DNA of 32,415 nt from Chlorobiaceae bacterium (GCA_013334755.1 JAAXWX010000001.1:99920-132334); one strand, 5' to 3'. Positions 319 to 7,594 are shown, numbered from the stretch's first letter. Program-made: numbers and translations. Notes: a model not told the origin generated them from the sequence alone.

Positions 319-392
319 GGCGAAGTGGCCGAGTGGTTAGGCAGAGGTCTGCAAAACCTTCTACAGCGGTTCGAATCCGCTCTTCGCCTCCA
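319..392 (+). tRNA. tRNA-Cys (GCA anticodon)
   Basis: A complete cloverleaf can be folded by eye. The acceptor stem GGCGAAG (319-325) pairs perfectly with CTTCGCC (382-388), followed by discriminator T389 and an encoded CCA (390-392). The anticodon loop reads CTGCAAA, giving anticodon GCA, which decodes Cys codons UGC/UGU. The T-arm contains GCGGTTCGAATCCGC. The D-arm region is GCCGAGTGGTTAGGC. An intrinsic terminator follows within 10 bases, so the gene appears to be transcribed alone. Confidence 0.97.
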
Positions 393-467: not shown

Positions 468-1625
468 CTATCCTATCTTTTCTGCGCCGGAAAGGATCGC
501 CATGACAAGCTTTTCAATTGTTACCTCATCCATCAGTACAGGAATGTTCAGGCAGATACTGCTGCGCAGCATGATGCCGGTTTTCGGCCAGAGCGCTTCA
601 AGATCGGCATCACGGTAGCGGTCGTACTCACCCAGGAGATGTCCCCATACTCCTGCATAATGCCAGTCAAGGGCTTCCGGAAGAATCTTGGTACCAAATC
701 CATGCTCCGTCAGATGAGCTTCAAACTGCAGGGCAGCTTCGCGATCCCTGACCCTGAAAATCAGGGTATCTCCCTGTGAACCGGCTTCATCGCTGAATGG
801 CCTCAAAATAATGTTGTCGAGATGACGGATGGCATCCTTGATTTTCCGCTTATTCTCCCTTGAACGCGAAAGAATAGTATCAATTTTAGCAAGCTGGGCA
901 AGGCCGATTGCTGCTGTAACTTCGCTGAGACGCAAATTAAGCCCTTTTGAGCGTCTGGGATCTTTACCTCTCGGTAATCCGGGCAAGTGCATATGACCGT
1001 GGTCAGAGAATTCGGCTGCACGATCATAGATCTCTTTGTCATTAGTCACAATAATTCCACCCTCACCGGTATGAAGAGTCTTCCCTGCATCAAACGAGAA
1101 AGAGGCAACACTGCCGAAGGTGCCGAGCTTGCGTCCCTTGTAGGAAGCACCGAGTGCCTGTGCAGCATCCTCAATCAAAATCAGGCCATGCTTACTGCAG
1201 ATCGCCGAAAGCTCATCCATTTTCGGCGAAGCCCACATAGGAATGGCTACCACCGCTTTTGTGGATGGTGTAATCGCCCTTTCAACCTCTACAGGATCGA
1301 GATGGTAGGTTTCATCAAGCTCAACAGGCACAGGTACCGCACCGAGCGCACTGATGGCCTCCACGGGAGCAATAAAGGTCCACGCTGTCGTAATAACCTC
1401 ATCACCGGGACCAATACCAGCACCGGCAAGGGCGCAATGTATTGCTGCAGTGCCGGATGAAACGGCATGGGCGTATGTTACCCCCATCCATCCGGCAAAT
1501 TTTTCCTCAAATTCTCTTGCTTTGTAATTACCACCGCCGTAACGGTACAAATTGACCTTTTCCCTGCTGAAAAGCTCCTGTATTTCTGCCAGTTCTTCTT
1601 TACCGATTAGTTCTGCGCCAGCCAT
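468..1625 (-). CDS. kdnA: KdnA-like PLP-dependent sugar aminotransferase (DegT/DnrJ/EryC1 family)
   Basis: A 385-residue fold-type I aminotransferase of the DegT/DnrJ/EryC1/StrS family. Family marks are SSGTAAIHCAL near residue 56, EDAAQALGA at 152-160, and the Schiff-base lysine K182 in SFDAGKTLHTGEGG. These enzymes transfer an amino group, usually from glutamate, to a keto sugar. The immediate neighbour is a KdnB-like dehydrogenase (21-base gap). This pairing is what specifies KdnA, 8-amino-3,8-dideoxy-manno-octulosonate transaminase, which aminates the C8 aldehyde produced by KdnB. It is the last gene of a five-gene minus-strand cluster and is followed by a terminator. An AGGA lies 8 bases before the ATG. 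The aminotransferase assignment is firm. The substrate (Kdo C8 aldehyde or another ulosonic acid) is inferred from context. Confidence 0.72.
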   Translation of the reverse strand: MAGAELIGKEELAEIQELFSREKVNLYRYGGGNYKAREFEEKFAGWMGVTYAHAVSSGTAAIHCALAGAGIGPGDEVITTAWTFIAPVEAISALGAVPVPVELDETYHLDPVEVERAITPSTKAVVAIPMWASPKMDELSAICSKHGLILIEDAAQALGASYKGRKLGTFGSVASFSFDAGKTLHTGEGGIIVTNDKEIYDRAAEFSDHGHMHLPGLPRGKDPRRSKGLNLRLSEVTAAIGLAQLAKIDTILSRSRENKRKIKDAIRHLDNIILRPFSDEAGSQGDTLIFRVRDREAALQFEAHLTEHGFGTKILPEALDWHYAGVWGHLLGEYDRYRDADLEALWPKTGIMLRSSICLNIPVLMDEVTIEKLVMAILSGAEKIG

Positions 1626-1646
1626 AATAGATATCCTGATCTTATT

Positions 1647-2789
1647 TTAGATTAATTGAGAAACAACGGCCAATGCCGATTCTTCAGTGAATTCAACCGG
1701 ATTACCAGAGAAAGACCCTTTCAGGGCTTCTGATGCGTTATGGGCAAATTCAGCAATGTTGCCTGCACCATACCCGTAAGGGACGAGAGAAGGGATCTGA
1801 AGCTGACGGTAGAGTTCATCCAGCTCTTCAAGCAGTTCATCCGTAGCCTCCCTGGGTGAAGGAGTCGAACGCATGGGATTGAAAAGTGCATATTTTTCAT
1901 AACCCTGAAGATGGTTGTACCGCATGACCTCCTTGAGAAAGATCGCACCGGCAAGACCGTGCGGTACACGATGCTTCACACCGAGATAGTAGGCAAAACC
2001 ATTAGTAGGACCGTCTCCTGAATTCATGAGTGCCGCCGTACCACAAACACTGCCAATGGCAAGGTCAAGCCGCGACTCTGCCCGATCAAGCTGGTTCTGC
2101 TGCAAAGCGTAAAACGTGCGCTGGAATCCCTCGATCGAAAAAATCCTGCTCAATGCAGTATGTTTTAGTGAACCAAAACTGTCCACACAGTGCACAAGAC
2201 TATCCATAGCCGATGCGATAACGCTTTCAAGAGGAGCCGTCATGGAGAGCTGAGGATCAATAACAGCTTTTTTCGGGAAATTCATCCTGCTGTTAATGCC
2301 AAGTTTGCGTCCCTCAACTTCGTCAATAAAAACCGCGTTAAAGCTTACTTCTGCACCGCTGCCCAGAAGTGACGGGACTGTGACAAGAGGCAACGGATTA
2401 TTTACACCAGAAGGAAATCCCTTGAGTGAAAGAGCCGGAACATTATTCGTCATGAGAAGAGCAACCCCTTTACCAAGATCAAGAGTGCTTCCGCCTCCAA
2501 TGGCAACAAGAGCGTCAGGAGGATTACTGCGGAAAAATTCAGTGACTTTTTCCAGATGAGTATAGGTCGGCTCTCCGGCACATTCATTGCAATAGAGCAC
2601 TGCACCGGTAAACGTTGAAGTCAGGTTCCTCAAAACATCCTGAAAATAGAGGCTTCCTGCCAGATTCGCATCGTAGATGATACCCGGCTTTTTCAATGTC
2701 AATTTGGTCAGATGCTCATTCAGGTTCAGTGCTTCGTTAACCCCGATGACAAGATCGGTGGATAAAAAGAAATTCATAAAAACAGTCAT
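1647..2789 (-). CDS. kdnB: KdnB-like iron-containing alcohol dehydrogenase family protein
   Basis: A 380-residue member of the Fe-ADH/dehydroquinate-synthase-like superfamily. GGGSTLD (98-104) binds the nucleotide. SGAEVS follows at about 144-149. Asp196 and His200 (DSLVH) and His277 (VPHGLA) fit three of the four usual metal ligands. The fourth canonical ligand, the first His of the HxxxHxLG motif, is Asn263, and the second His of that motif is Tyr267. KdnB is described as oxidising the C8 alcohol of Kdo so that KdnA can aminate it. The segments GRKLGINS and HCVDS resemble KdnB as I recall it. The position next to a KdnA-like gene supports that role, but other Fe-ADH subfamilies (for example phosphonoacetaldehyde reductase-like) are possible. 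A second ATG at 2777 could be the true start. Confidence 0.62.
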   Translation of the reverse strand: MTVFMNFFLSTDLVIGVNEALNLNEHLTKLTLKKPGIIYDANLAGSLYFQDVLRNLTSTFTGAVLYCNECAGEPTYTHLEKVTEFFRSNPPDALVAIGGGSTLDLGKGVALLMTNNVPALSLKGFPSGVNNPLPLVTVPSLLGSGAEVSFNAVFIDEVEGRKLGINSRMNFPKKAVIDPQLSMTAPLESVIASAMDSLVHCVDSFGSLKHTALSRIFSIEGFQRTFYALQQNQLDRAESRLDLAIGSVCGTAALMNSGDGPTNGFAYYLGVKHRVPHGLAGAIFLKEVMRYNHLQGYEKYALFNPMRSTPSPREATDELLEELDELYRQLQIPSLVPYGYGAGNIAEFAHNASEALKGSFSGNPVEFTEESALAVVSQLI

Positions 2790-2798
2790 CTAATGGTT

Positions 2799-3503
2799 CT
2801 ATTGATTTGCATCCTGGCCTGCCAGGTTTTTTTTATACAAGTAATACTCAATTAAATCTATTTCTTCAACAGTATCAATCTCCCATGTTTGCCAAAACTC
2901 CATTTCATAGGCAGAAAGTTTTTCACCTATTCTGTTGTTAAAGGTAGTAAGAATTTCAGGCTTGAATATATAGATTGAGCCATTTTCAATAAACTGTGCT
3001 GGACGGTCCTGTCGCATGCCACGATTGCGATAATCAAAGTTGACACTCTGCCATTTCCCTTTCCTTGATTCCCACAAGGTAAGGTCATCTGCCCTGGTGA
3101 CCGAAATCAGCGAATCGGACCCTTCTCGAATAAAAAGTTCTAAAGCACGATCAATATCACCTGGCTTTCTCAAAGGGGAGGTTGCCTGCAGAAAAACAAT
3201 CGTATCAATCGGCTTATTGTAATCCCGTTCAATGACCGTTGCAGCATGCACAATAGCGGATTCCGAACTTGCCTTGTCTCCAGCAAGTTCCGGAGGACGT
3301 ACAATCACCTCCGCACCATATTCAACAGCAACGTTGGCAATAGCCTGGTCGTCTGTTGAAACAAACACTTTCTCTATTGATTTTGAAGCCAATGCCTGTA
3401 AAACAGTCCATGCAAGCAGGGGTTTTCCTGCTACAGGGTAAATATTCTTTTCTTTCAGCCCTTTCGACCCACCCCTTGCAGGAATGACTGCTACGGTATA
3501 CAT
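2799..3503 (-). CDS. CMP-sugar synthetase, NeuA/acylneuraminate cytidylyltransferase family
   Basis: A 234-residue nucleotidyltransferase that couples CTP to a 2-keto-3-deoxy sugar acid and releases pyrophosphate, giving the CMP-activated donor. The N-terminal CTP loop is [14 protein letters not shown] (residues 7-20). It is followed by [14 protein letters not shown] and ENGSIYIF, all typical of CMP-sialic, -legionaminic or -pseudaminic acid synthetases. It is not the KdsB type, whose loop reads IPAR(Y/F)xSTRLPGK. The gene lies 9 bases before the KdnB-like gene and 21 bases after the glycosyltransferase, so all are probably co-transcribed. The expected substrate is therefore the ulosonic acid made by the neighbouring pair, but no NeuB/LegI-type condensing enzyme is in the window. 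Family confidence is high. The exact sugar is unknown. Confidence 0.85.
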
Positions 3504-3524
3504 ATAAAATAAGAGCGTTTAAGT

Positions 3525-4481
3525 TCAGCCATCTATTACCTGTCTGCAGACATCAGCAATTTTTTTTGCAGCAGATTTATTCTGTAAAGGGGTAAGCGAT
3601 TTTAACTCATCAGGAGGCAGGCCGCAATGGACAATCTTGTTCAGGGCTGAGCCTACAAAAATCGTCGATGAAAACTGTGCAATCAGCATTCGGGAATTGG
3701 CGATCATCTCTTCGGTTCTGCCTTCACTGAAGACAAGACTATCGGGAGCATAACGTTGAATTTCTCTGGTCGCTCTTTCAATATTTTCATTGGGATGAAG
3801 TTTGAAGAGAAGCTGACTTCCTTCAGCCATTGCAAGATATTTCCGGATATTTTTAAGACGATTCTCATAAATAAAGGTTTCACGGTTGTCGGACGTACAG
3901 ACAAGAACGTAATCACGATGATGAAAATCATTCTGAAGATACTGCTCGCAGTTATCAAAATTGGGAATACTTGTAACGACAATCTTGGACGGATTGACCC
4001 CTTTTTGAATGAACAGATCGCGATACCCTTCACTTGCAACACAGAACTTCTCGTAGGCATCGGACAAACCTGTCGTAGCCGTACCGGCAATCCAGCGAGG
4101 GATCCACTGAAAGTTCCTTGCAAAATGGAAAAGAATCGTTTCAGGTTCAGTCATGCCCTCCTGAACCAGCACAATTTTTTTTCGACGGATATGCTTGGGA
4201 ACAATAAGATCTGTACAGGTAACAACAAGATCATAAGCATGGGTAAGACCACCAATATCAAGCTTCAAATGGTTTGAACGGAGATATTCAAGCGTACGTT
4301 CCGAGCGCTTGCGGCCCATGATGGTAAACTCAAGCAATCCTATGTCACTGGCAGATCCAAGAACACCATCACTGAAAAACGGTGAAAAATATTGGTCATA
4401 TTCGCCCAGGCACCCGGCAATCTGATGCATTTGGGTGGTCTGGTTCATTGAGCCGCAGATAAATAATATTTTCTTTTTCAT
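3525..4481 (-). CDS. Putative GT-B-like glycosyltransferase, surface polysaccharide
   Basis: A 318-residue cytoplasmic-looking protein without a signal peptide. The N-terminus KKKILFICGS is a Rossmann-type first strand. LVQEGMTEP, then VVTSIPNFDN, then LLFKLHPNE and LIAQFSSTIFVGSALNK near the C-terminus follow the pattern of GT-B enzymes of the capsule, CDP-glycerol-transferase and polysialyltransferase-like type, in which the HPNE/SS motifs lie in the nucleotide-binding half. The start overlaps the stop of the preceding gene as ATGA, with GGAG 4 bases upstream, so translation is probably coupled. Lying directly before a CMP-sugar synthetase, it is a candidate for transferring the CMP-activated sugar made by this cluster. 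That role is inference. No exact family name could be fixed by eye. Confidence 0.55.
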   Translation of the reverse strand: MKKKILFICGSMNQTTQMHQIAGCLGEYDQYFSPFFSDGVLGSASDIGLLEFTIMGRKRSERTLEYLRSNHLKLDIGGLTHAYDLVVTCTDLIVPKHIRRKKIVLVQEGMTEPETILFHFARNFQWIPRWIAGTATTGLSDAYEKFCVASEGYRDLFIQKGVNPSKIVVTSIPNFDNCEQYLQNDFHHRDYVLVCTSDNRETFIYENRLKNIRKYLAMAEGSQLLFKLHPNENIERATREIQRYAPDSLVFSEGRTEEMIANSRMLIAQFSSTIFVGSALNKIVHCGLPPDELKSLTPLQNKSAAKKIADVCRQVIDG

Positions 4482-5539
4482 GAATCTCCGTTGCTGAATC
4501 CTTCTGCGTCACGCAAATGGACCCCTGAAAAAAACATGATACAATACCCGGCTGAGTACCAGAGAAGTTCCTTGAAACGCCTCAAAAGCACAAATGCACC
4601 GTAATCCTGAAAATCATGCATACCGAGCGCTTGAAAAAAAACACGATAACCCAACTCCTGCACACCAAGTCCTGAGGGAATGAAAAAAAACAAAGCCCTC
4701 AACATGGTAATTGCCGTATCCATGGCTAACACCTGAAGAAAAGAGATTTCAACACCAAGCAAGCATAATATAATATAACTCTCAATCGCAAGCATGAACC
4801 ATGCAAGGATATAGATGAGCAATACAAAAATCAGCCGACGGGCAAAAGGTGCATCGAAACTCTTCAACTCCTCATCAGTATCAAGAAATCCAGCCTCCTT
4901 TGTCAGCAGCCATACTTTTACCCGCTTGAATGGCACATACATCAAGATTCTGTGAACATTCTGTGCAGCGCTGCCGTTAAGAAGAACAAAAAGAAAAAAG
5001 AGAAAAAGGAGAAAAACCGCTATACCGCATCCAATCATAATATAACCGAGTACAGCAACCGGAAACATCGGAATTGTTACTGACTGCAAGAGTGAAAAAC
5101 CTGCAATGGCACCGATAATGGTATAGATTCCCTGGGCAACGCCAAGTAAAAGTTTGCGCACAGCAACACTTGCAACGCCTGCAGGAAGAGGAATTCCAAT
5201 AAAACGATTACAGAGAAACGGACGAAGAGGTTCACCAATAGCTACCCCTGCCGGAATTGTCATTGATATGGTTTCTGTTATCAACTGTATTTTCAGAAGC
5301 TTGAAAAATGGAATTGCCCTTATACTCGGAGGAAAAACATTCATCCATGCAATGGTTTCAAGAAGATGAAGCGCACTAAAAGGCAAAAGGATTAATACCG
5401 AGGAAAAACCGATTGAGGATATCCGTTCAATCACTCCTGCAAGATCAATTTGTCGGAACTGAAACACAATCAGGATAATCCCGAGACCAAGACCGATATA
5501 ACCAGCCAAGGTACTACTGGATTTTTTCGTCATTTTCAT
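4478..5539 (-). CDS. YbhN/LPG_synthase_TM-type integral membrane protein (flippase-like)
   Basis: A 353-residue polytopic membrane protein with about six to eight hydrophobic segments (roughly residues 11-28, 44-65, 125-150, 157-188, 232-258, 265-295 and one near the C-terminus). The layout and the segment IPAGVAIGEPLRPF, followed later by FFIPSGLGVQELGYR, match the UPF0104/lysylphosphatidylglycerol-synthetase transmembrane family (YbhN, AglD and HpnL-like). Members are thought to move or present lipid-linked substrates and often sit in envelope glycan loci. The ATG at 5539 is preferred; a TTG one codon upstream is also in frame. The stop overlaps the next gene by 4 bases. It is probably the first gene of the cluster. 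The biochemical function of the family is not settled. Confidence 0.75.
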   Translation of the reverse strand: MKMTKKSSSTLAGYIGLGLGIILIVFQFRQIDLAGVIERISSIGFSSVLILLPFSALHLLETIAWMNVFPPSIRAIPFFKLLKIQLITETISMTIPAGVAIGEPLRPFLCNRFIGIPLPAGVASVAVRKLLLGVAQGIYTIIGAIAGFSLLQSVTIPMFPVAVLGYIMIGCGIAVFLLFLFFLFVLLNGSAAQNVHRILMYVPFKRVKVWLLTKEAGFLDTDEELKSFDAPFARRLIFVLLIYILAWFMLAIESYIILCLLGVEISFLQVLAMDTAITMLRALFFFIPSGLGVQELGYRVFFQALGMHDFQDYGAFVLLRRFKELLWYSAGYCIMFFSGVHLRDAEGFSNGDS

Positions 5540-5580
5540 CAAAAATCAGGAAACATAGCTAAAAAAATACACAAAACTTA

Positions 5581-5761: not shown

Positions 5762-7594
5762 ATGGGACTTATTAATCCTGACTTCCAGACATTACCTGAG
5801 CTCTTCTCCTCTGTTTTCCATCATTTCAGAGGACAGGACTCTAAATTTCCAATTGCAAGGAAGATCAATGGGGTATATGAACCTATCTCTTATGATGCCT
5901 TTGAAAAGGATGTCCGTGATCTCTCTGCATTTCTTAAGAACAATGGCATCAAGGCAAAGGAAAGGGTCGCTATTCTTTCGGAAAACAGACCGGGATGGTA
6001 TCTGGCTGATATGGCTATACTGAATATCGGTGCAATCAACGTACCACTTTATCCCTCATTGCCGTCCAACCAGATCGAATACATTCTCAACAACTGTAGT
6101 GCGAAGGCTATTATAGTCTCAAATATGCTCCAGCTTGGCAAAATCCTTTCGATCTGGCAAAACCTTCCGGAGTTGACCCTTGTCGTGGTTATGAACCGTC
6201 TTGAGGAAGCTCTGGAGGATGTTTTGGACCTGAACCAGGCAAAAACAAAGGGCGAAAAAATTCTTGAGGAAAAACCGTGGATCCTTGAAGCTGCACCCGT
6301 AGAGCCTGATGATGTTGCAACCATCATCTACACATCCGGTACTACCGGGCTTCCGAAAGGAGTTATGCTTACTCATCGGAATATTTGTGAAAACGTCAAA
6401 TCCTGTTCTTCAATTATTCGCCTTGATGAATCAGATTGCGGCCTCTCCTTCCTGCCTCTTTCCCATGCTTATGAACGAACCGGCGGCTATTATCTGTTAT
6501 TTTCCTGCGGAGCCAGCATTTATCTGGCTGAAAGTATTGAAACAATTTCGCTGAACATGACCGAAGCCCGCCCTACGATTATCTTTACCGTTCCGAGGCT
6601 CTTTGACCGCATCAAAATGAGCATACTCAAGCAAATTTCTGCCCAAAGCGCCATAAAGCAGAAAATATTCTACTGGGCACTGAAAACGGGGGAAAAATAC
6701 CACCAGGAAATCAATAAAAAAGGAAGTGCCGGACAATTTCTTTCAATACAGCACACGTTAGCCGAAAAGCTTGTATATGACAAAATCAAAAACAAATTTG
6801 GCGGGAGGTTGCGCTATTTTGTCTCGGGAGGAGCGGCTTTGCCTCAAAAGATTGGTGAATTTTTTCAGGCACTTGATATCAACATCCTTGAAGGATTTGG
6901 TCTGACTGAAACCGCACCGGTAACCCATGTCAATCGGCCGGAAAAAATCAAGTATGGCACTGTAGGGCCCGCAGTTGACAATGTCCAGGTCAAGATTGCC
7001 GATGATGGAGAAATACTACTCAAAGGCCCGAATATCATGAAGGGTTACTGGAATGATGAGGAGGCAACCCGGCAGGTTATCAAGGATGGATGGTTCTATA
7101 CTGGTGACATTGGAGAAATCGACCGGGATGGATATTTAAAAATAACCGACCGCAAAAAACATATTATTGTCACCTCTGGTGGAAAAAATATTGCGCCAAT
7201 GCCCATTGAAAATCTGATTTCCGATAGTCCTTATGTCGACCAGGTCGTTGTGATTGGAGAAAAAAGGCCATTTCTTATTGCCCTTATTGTTCCTGATTTC
7301 AACAAACTCAAGGAGTTTGCTGATGCAGAGGGAATTAAGGCTGCAACCAGCAAAGAGTTGATTGAAAACAAAAGCATTCAGCAGATTTTTGAAAAACTCA
7401 TCCGTACCGTCTCACGGCAGCTTGCCACTCATGAAAAAGTTCGCAAGTTCCTGCTGGTCGATAGTGCGTTCACCATTGAAAACGGTCATATGACCCCGAC
7501 CCTCAAACTCAAACGCAAGGATATTACCACGAGGTATGCCGCAGAGATTGACAAAGTGTACAACACGCTCAACATGGTTTACAACACCGAGTAA
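5762..7594 (+). CDS. fadD: Long-chain fatty acid--CoA ligase (AMP-forming)
   Basis: A full-length 610-residue ANL-superfamily enzyme. It activates a fatty acid with ATP to an acyl-adenylate and then to acyl-CoA. Visible motifs are the P-loop [11 protein letters not shown] (190-200), LPLSHAYER (231-239), EGFGLTET (377-384), YTGD (446-449), TDRKK (462-466) and the C-terminal catalytic lysine region TPTLKLKRK (578-586, K582). The length and the 'LPLSHAYER' sequence are typical of the bacterial FadD15-like/long-chain ACS group. In an organism of this kind the role is probably recycling or remodelling of membrane fatty acids rather than beta-oxidation (inference). The gene is transcribed alone, divergently from the kdn-like cluster. 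No terminator was found after its stop. Confidence 0.92.

Follow-up and report, generated by a model that had tools for sequence, protein, structure and literature searches.

The window analysed here, a stretch of 32,415 nucleotides from a Chlorobiaceae genome of 2.1 Mb, carries a five-gene operon that probably makes and activates a nonulosonic acid aminated at C9, most likely 9-amino-9-deoxy-KDN. This reading builds on observations at four levels: the identities of the genes, the conservation of the operon, the clade membership of its enzymes and the way in which the dehydrogenase–aminotransferase pair is linked to NeuB in other phyla. Judged from the sequences, a nine-carbon nonulosonate aminated at C9 is better supported than the eight-carbon Kdo8N form. 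An earlier note on this DNA had proposed an uncharacterised amino-ulosonic acid in a surface glycan. The amino-ulosonic part of that proposal stands, but a Kdo-like substrate is unsupported, as the aminotransferase falls in a NeuB-linked clade.

A conserved five-gene operon in the Chlorobiaceae

The five open reading frames lie on the minus strand at 468–5542, each where the earlier note had placed it, and are spaced by 21, 9, 21 and −4 bp (Table 1). Pfam cut-offs are exceeded for DegT, Fe-ADH, CTP_transf_3 and LPG_synthase_TM, while the GT-B protein receives no Pfam call.

Table 1. The operon and its borders in the window.
Feature	Position	Strand	Basis
tRNA-Cys, downstream boundary of the operon	319..392	plus	ARAGORN
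KdnA-family DegT/PLP aminotransferase, 385 aa, nonulosonate-type sub-clade	468..1625	minus	Sequence, fold, tree
Type-III (Fe/Zn) alcohol dehydrogenase (ADH), non-KdnB branch	1647..2789	minus	Pfam Fe-ADH, tree
NeuA-type CMP-sugar synthetase, 234 aa	2799..3503	minus	NeuA structures, PseF/NeuA models, tree
Probable glycosyltransferase of GT-B fold, 318 aa	3525..4481	minus	GT-B fold, weak GT-family matches, conserved motifs
YbhN/LPG_synthase_TM-like protein	5542 (TTG; ATG at 5539)–4478	minus	PF03706, 88 bits
Divergent AMP-binding enzyme, other boundary of the operon	5762–7594		

Named relatives place the window in the Chlorobiaceae, the aminotransferase of Chlorobium ferrooxidans (L104) being 93% identical to that of the window. 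This enzyme was present in all 37 of the 37 genus genomes searched first, with 83–94% identity; the rest of the order and phylum returned in the same search only generic DegT proteins near 40%. In a larger sample it occurred in almost every genome from two genera of the Chlorobiaceae and was absent from the sister families of the order. The order of the five genes is repeated in the inspected loci, the second genus (g19) included, where one locus (L226) has an additional stretch between the ADH and NeuA genes. The five genes thus form a conserved, ordered unit throughout the Chlorobiaceae and not a chance array, and an operon kept so universally is more suggestive of a core component of the envelope than of a variable capsule.

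One metagenome-assembled genome (G008) has two aminotransferase loci (L128 and L129), with 87% and 85% identity to the window. This assembly is listed as 7% contaminated and the two copies possibly stem from two strains.

The aminotransferase and the two KdnA clades

The top solved sequence match of the aminotransferase is KdnA (5k8b), with 276 bits against 165 for the next match and with 44% identity over the first 333 residues. KdnA is also the top fold match of the predicted model (TM 0.91, E 2.7e-38). The PLP lysine, Lys182, is invariant, and it is common to both proteins together with DHGH and the substrate-pocket motif WH(Y/F)...W.H. On sequence and predicted fold the enzyme is a member of the KdnA family, and the shared motifs and best match suggest a chemistry like that of KdnA.

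A tree of 48 KdnA-family sequences splits into two clades, each with 100/99 support. Shewanella KdnA belongs to the first, together with sequences from Desulfobacterota, Thiomicrorhabdus and many Bacteroidota. The second comprises the Chlorobiaceae, with the window, as well as SAR86, Omnitrophota, one Bacteroidota locus (L206) and one gammaproteobacterium (L218). The window aminotransferase is therefore outside the clade whose KdnAs accompany Kdo genes and in the sister clade with NeuB-linked proteins. Near-fixed differences that are diagnostic of the clades are G/V181, P/D218, R/H224, T/F287, L/Y315 and P/W316; several of these positions are likely to be located in pocket loops, to go by the neighbouring conserved motifs. 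A Syntrophaceae sequence (L156) is placed between the two clades with weak support. If the reading given above is right, KdnA homologues annotated as Kdo8N enzymes would comprise two groups that differ in their likely substrates.

Outside the window's clade, KdnA, often with KdnB and KdsB, was seen across Bacteroidota, Desulfobacterota and Thiomicrorhabdus (L207–L217, L224, L225 and L230–L233). This wide spread suggests that Kdo8N may extend far beyond Shewanella.

Gene neighbourhoods in other phyla

KdnA-family genes were collected by a scan of about 85,000 species genomes, which was then extended by sampling Omnitrophota, the SAR86 order, the window's own phylum and Gammaproteobacteria. Among the loci of the window's clade that lie outside the Chlorobiaceae, eight of nine carry NeuB at a distance of no more than 6 kb; the ninth (L179) is cut by a contig edge. 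In contrast, NeuB adjoins KdnA in 0 of the 35 other KdnA-family loci, where the neighbours are KdnB and often KdsB, KdsA or WaaA. A Fisher test gives about 6e-8 for this difference, a value that ignores kinship and serves as a guide only.

The arrangement is NeuA-ADH-KdnA-NeuB in SAR86 (L146 and L180), NeuB-NeuC-x-ADH-KdnA-NeuA in a further locus of the SAR86 order (L181), NeuB-NeuC-NeuD-x-ADH-x-KdnA-NeuA in Bacteroidota (L206) and ADH-KdnA-NeuA-NeuB-NeuC-NeuD in Omnitrophota (L154 and L178). The last two loci are the ones in which a full NeuA-NeuB-NeuC-NeuD cassette stands beside a KdnA of the window's clade; in L154, NeuB, NeuC and NeuD follow directly after ADH-KdnA-NeuA and score above the NCBIfam curated cut-offs. 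That the same partners recur in differing gene orders between lineages argues for a functional linkage. The locus of the gammaproteobacterium is a mosaic (L218:7021–11808) of a window-clade aminotransferase, a KdnB-type ADH, NeuB and an SpsF-like cytidylyltransferase.

Some of these neighbourhoods have features of their own. The SAR86 NeuB (L146:11155–13401 and L180:10616–12862) is part of a protein of 748 residues, with the architecture CBS-NeuB-SAF-AP_endonuc_2 (xylose-isomerase-like) in L146. An Omnitrophota NeuB cluster (L155:1741–3321) contains two tandem, near-identical genes of about 260 aa, 88–93% alike, for which Pfam and NCBIfam gave no match. A legionaminic acid cluster was considered for L154 and rejected, the nearby DegT protein and epimerase scoring below the LegC and LegB cut-offs.

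The dehydrogenase

KdnB (5k8c) scores only 59.5 bits against the window ADH, compared with 95–97 bits for 1,3-propanediol and lactaldehyde enzymes. In the ADH tree the protein groups with the ADHs of NeuB-linked loci (100/97), with the KdnB clade at the end of a branch 3.38 changes per column long. The third classical metal-ligand histidine of type-III ADHs, at a position that we take to be that of FucO His263, is changed throughout the window's ADH clade, to Asn in Chlorobiaceae and SAR86 and to Gly or Ala in its remaining members linked to NeuB, whereas KdnB keeps the histidine. The scores, the separate branch and the lost ligand rule out that this dehydrogenase is KdnB. Of the KdnA/KdnB pair claimed by the earlier note, which had itself pointed to phylogeny as the check, a KdnA-family aminotransferase and a type-III ADH are retained; the ADH lies outside the KdnB clade and the aminotransferase in a separate, NeuB-linked sub-clade of its family.

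The ADH is thus a separately recruited type-III enzyme with an altered metal site, and its activity is uncertain because a canonical metal ligand is missing. It is very improbable, in our estimate, that the protein is a regulatory or structural relative instead of a dehydrogenase and that the operon makes a different sugar. The substitution of one ligand histidine by Asn, Gly or Ala across the clade would agree with such a role, as would the top NCBIfam match, the regulatory ErcA family, which is far below its cut-off. However, the clade retains the GGGS motif for NAD binding as well as D, H and H at the other positions of the metal site, and in NeuB-linked loci that are complete the ADH gene keeps close to that of the aminotransferase, the mosaic L218 having a KdnB-type ADH instead.

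The activating enzyme and the Kdo pathway of the genome

The tree places the cytidylyltransferase among solved NeuA enzymes (100/99) and away from KdsB. PseF/NeuA models and NeuA structures score far above KdsB, whose model TIGR00466 gives 29.9 bits against a cut-off of 155.2; the NCBIfam cut-off for PseF, the pseudaminic acid cytidylyltransferase, is also not reached (116.6 of 205.7 bits). The ARGGSKG loop and the RQD..ENGS region of NeuA-type enzymes are retained. By these sequence criteria the activating enzyme is a NeuA-type CMP-sugar synthetase, which bears out the sialic-acid type assigned by the earlier note. No other NeuA-type enzyme was detected in G000, nor in most of the genomes of the genus that were searched.

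The genome also has its own KdsA, KdsC, KdsB and WaaA, a complete Kdo pathway that is separate from the operon. Kdo has been found in the lipooligosaccharide (LOS) of Chlorobaculum tepidum (PMC12285230), so it is made and used and has not been replaced.

With Kdo available, the pair might aminate it at C8, the NeuA-like enzyme having been adapted to activate Kdo8N. After all, no other solved protein is as close to the aminotransferase in sequence and fold as KdnA, and the W-H-Y/F...W-H pocket motif is shared. We nevertheless consider this route unlikely. The aminotransferase belongs to a separate clade that is linked to NeuB elsewhere and differs in its diagnostic residues, and true Kdo8N sets have KdnB and usually KdsB, in place of the non-KdnB dehydrogenase and NeuA-type activator of the operon.

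A NeuB–phosphatase locus as the proposed source of the sugar

NeuB is not part of the Chlorobiaceae operon. One NeuB-family gene is present at a conserved second locus in every genome of the genus that was tested, where it adjoins a gene for a KdsC-like HAD phosphatase (G000 contig 11, L054:646–2109). The earlier note had raised the possibility that nonulosonic acid condensing genes of the genome feed the operon's cytidylyltransferase; the genome does have a NeuB, and no other NeuA-type enzyme was detected in it.

The NeuB contains a PF03102 domain (257.6 bits) and scores 248 bits against the NeuB_NnaB curated cut-off of 400; a domain search found no SAF domain. The best model of the HAD protein is the KDN-9-P phosphatase NF058599, with 148.9 bits and thus below the cut-off of 180; the KdsC model scores lower (129.6 of 208 bits). 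Its top solved match is 3e81, which we take to be a member of the BT1713 phosphatase set. Every Chlorobiaceae genome checked has NeuB and this second HAD nearest to KDN-9-P phosphatase. Bacterial synthesis of KDN by way of KDN-9-P is known, the route in Bacteroides running from Man-6-P to KDN-9-P to KDN (PMC6200933), and the resemblance of the NeuB–HAD pair to this route makes KDN the leading guess.

The core of SAF-less NeuB and HAD extends across the whole order, including sister families (L062, L069, L070 and L072) in which NeuB is about 75% identical. Those families are without the operon and no close NeuA was found in them, so the product of the NeuB–HAD pair may have a further use.

The ADH–aminotransferase pair could also aminate a nonulosonate other than KDN, for example Neu5Ac, at which the Omnitrophota cassettes hint, or an unknown product of the SAF-less NeuB, or it could act at a carbon other than C9. 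NeuC and NeuD beside the pair in Omnitrophota suggest N-acetylated sugars there, and the missing SAF domain may reflect an unusual substrate in Chlorobium. However, neither NeuC nor NeuD was found in the vicinity of the Chlorobium genes, KDN-9-P phosphatase is the nearest family of the neighbouring HAD, and the chemistry of KdnA takes place at a terminal carbon. This alternative is distinctly unlikely in our judgement.

Glycosyltransferase-like and membrane proteins

The product of the fourth gene has a GT-B fold in a predicted model of modest confidence (pLDDT 70). Weak matches to two surface-carbohydrate glycosyltransferase families are obtained for 23 of 30 and 17 of 30 orthologues. In a Foldseek search 2-epimerases rank first, with bacterial polysialyltransferase and TagF lower. 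The motifs QEG, KLHP and FSST are invariant among the orthologues and may echo the (D/E)(D/E)G, HP and SS/T motifs of bacterial sialyltransferases, although the GT-B fold also matches 2-epimerases. A NeuC-like UDP-GlcNAc 2-epimerase was rejected, the GDR, HGG(E) and GNSSSG motifs of the aligned NeuCs being absent by inspection and the hhalign probability being 0.5%. A glycosyltransferase is the probable assignment.

The membrane protein scores 92 bits with HpnL, below the HpnL cut-off, in addition to its PF03706 match. This LPG_synthase_TM/HpnL/YbhN-like integral membrane protein is possibly a lipid transporter. The glycosyltransferase-like and flippase-like proteins described by the earlier note are thus both present. 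The structures of the outer-membrane lipids of Chlorobaculum tepidum are stated as not established (PMC12285230). An aminoglycosphingolipid of Chlorobium limicola, reported by Jensen et al. 1991 according to a citation in PMC11762602, is a possible acceptor or product.

A model of the pathway

From family, linkage and conservation we infer the substrate, the product, the position of amination, the order of the steps and the acceptor in the following model. The unlinked SAF-less NeuB would condense phosphoenolpyruvate with a hexose 6-phosphate, for which mannose-6-P is a guess, and the neighbouring KdsC/KDN-9-phosphatase-like HAD would strip the phosphate to give KDN. The type-III ADH would then oxidize the terminal C9 alcohol to an aldehyde, which the KdnA-family PLP enzyme would transaminate before the NeuA-type enzyme converts the sugar to its CMP form. 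Finally, the GT-B protein would transfer the sugar to an acceptor, perhaps a lipid or the LOS core, and the YbhN-like protein may carry either the product or its lipid to the other side of the membrane.

This type of pathway is so far known only for the eight-carbon Kdo, and the operon is probably a version for a nine-carbon, sialic-acid-like sugar. If true, conversion of the terminal hydroxyl to an amine also exists for sugars of this class, and a major group of phototrophs has terminal amination among its core traits. In a broader and more tentative proposal, which we hold as possible rather than probable, nearly all Chlorobiaceae make an unreported zwitterionic 9-amino nonulosonic acid that belongs to the core constituents of their surface, and SAR86, Omnitrophota and other lineages have this oxidation–amination module added to their sialic acid cassettes. 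The openly accessible literature, with most subscription journals outside its scope, yielded no report of a natural 9-amino nonulosonate or of nonulosonic acids in Chlorobium.

Comparison with known systems

In Shewanella, KdnB and KdnA turn Kdo into 8-amino-Kdo, which a KdsB-type enzyme activates. The Chlorobium operon shares with the KdnA/KdnB/KdsB set of Shewanella oneidensis a PLP aminotransferase of the same family, an adjacent type-III ADH and a CMP-sugar synthetase, as well as the proposal that an ulosonic acid is oxidized and transaminated at its terminal alcohol before it is activated. It differs in that the ADH belongs to a different branch and its metal site is changed, and in that NeuA takes the place of KdsB; in the window's group NeuB rather than Kds genes is linked, residue differences are fixed or nearly so at several positions, and there are an extra probable glycosyltransferase and a membrane protein. 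Kdo8N itself has been described as a Shewanella hallmark (PMC6357163).

The KDN pathway of Bacteroides thetaiotaomicron (BT1714 synthase, BT1713 phosphatase and CMP-KDN synthetase; PMC6200933) likewise has a NeuB-type synthase beside a KdsC-like HAD and a NeuA-type activator in the genome. In Chlorobium, however, the activator resides in a separate operon with an oxidation–amination pair, the HAD does not reach the cut-off of its family and NeuB is without SAF. Classical NeuA-NeuB-NeuC-NeuD cassettes are without the ADH/aminotransferase pair and the Chlorobium operon is without NeuC and NeuD, but in Omnitrophota an ADH–KdnA-type pair is inserted beside just such genes.
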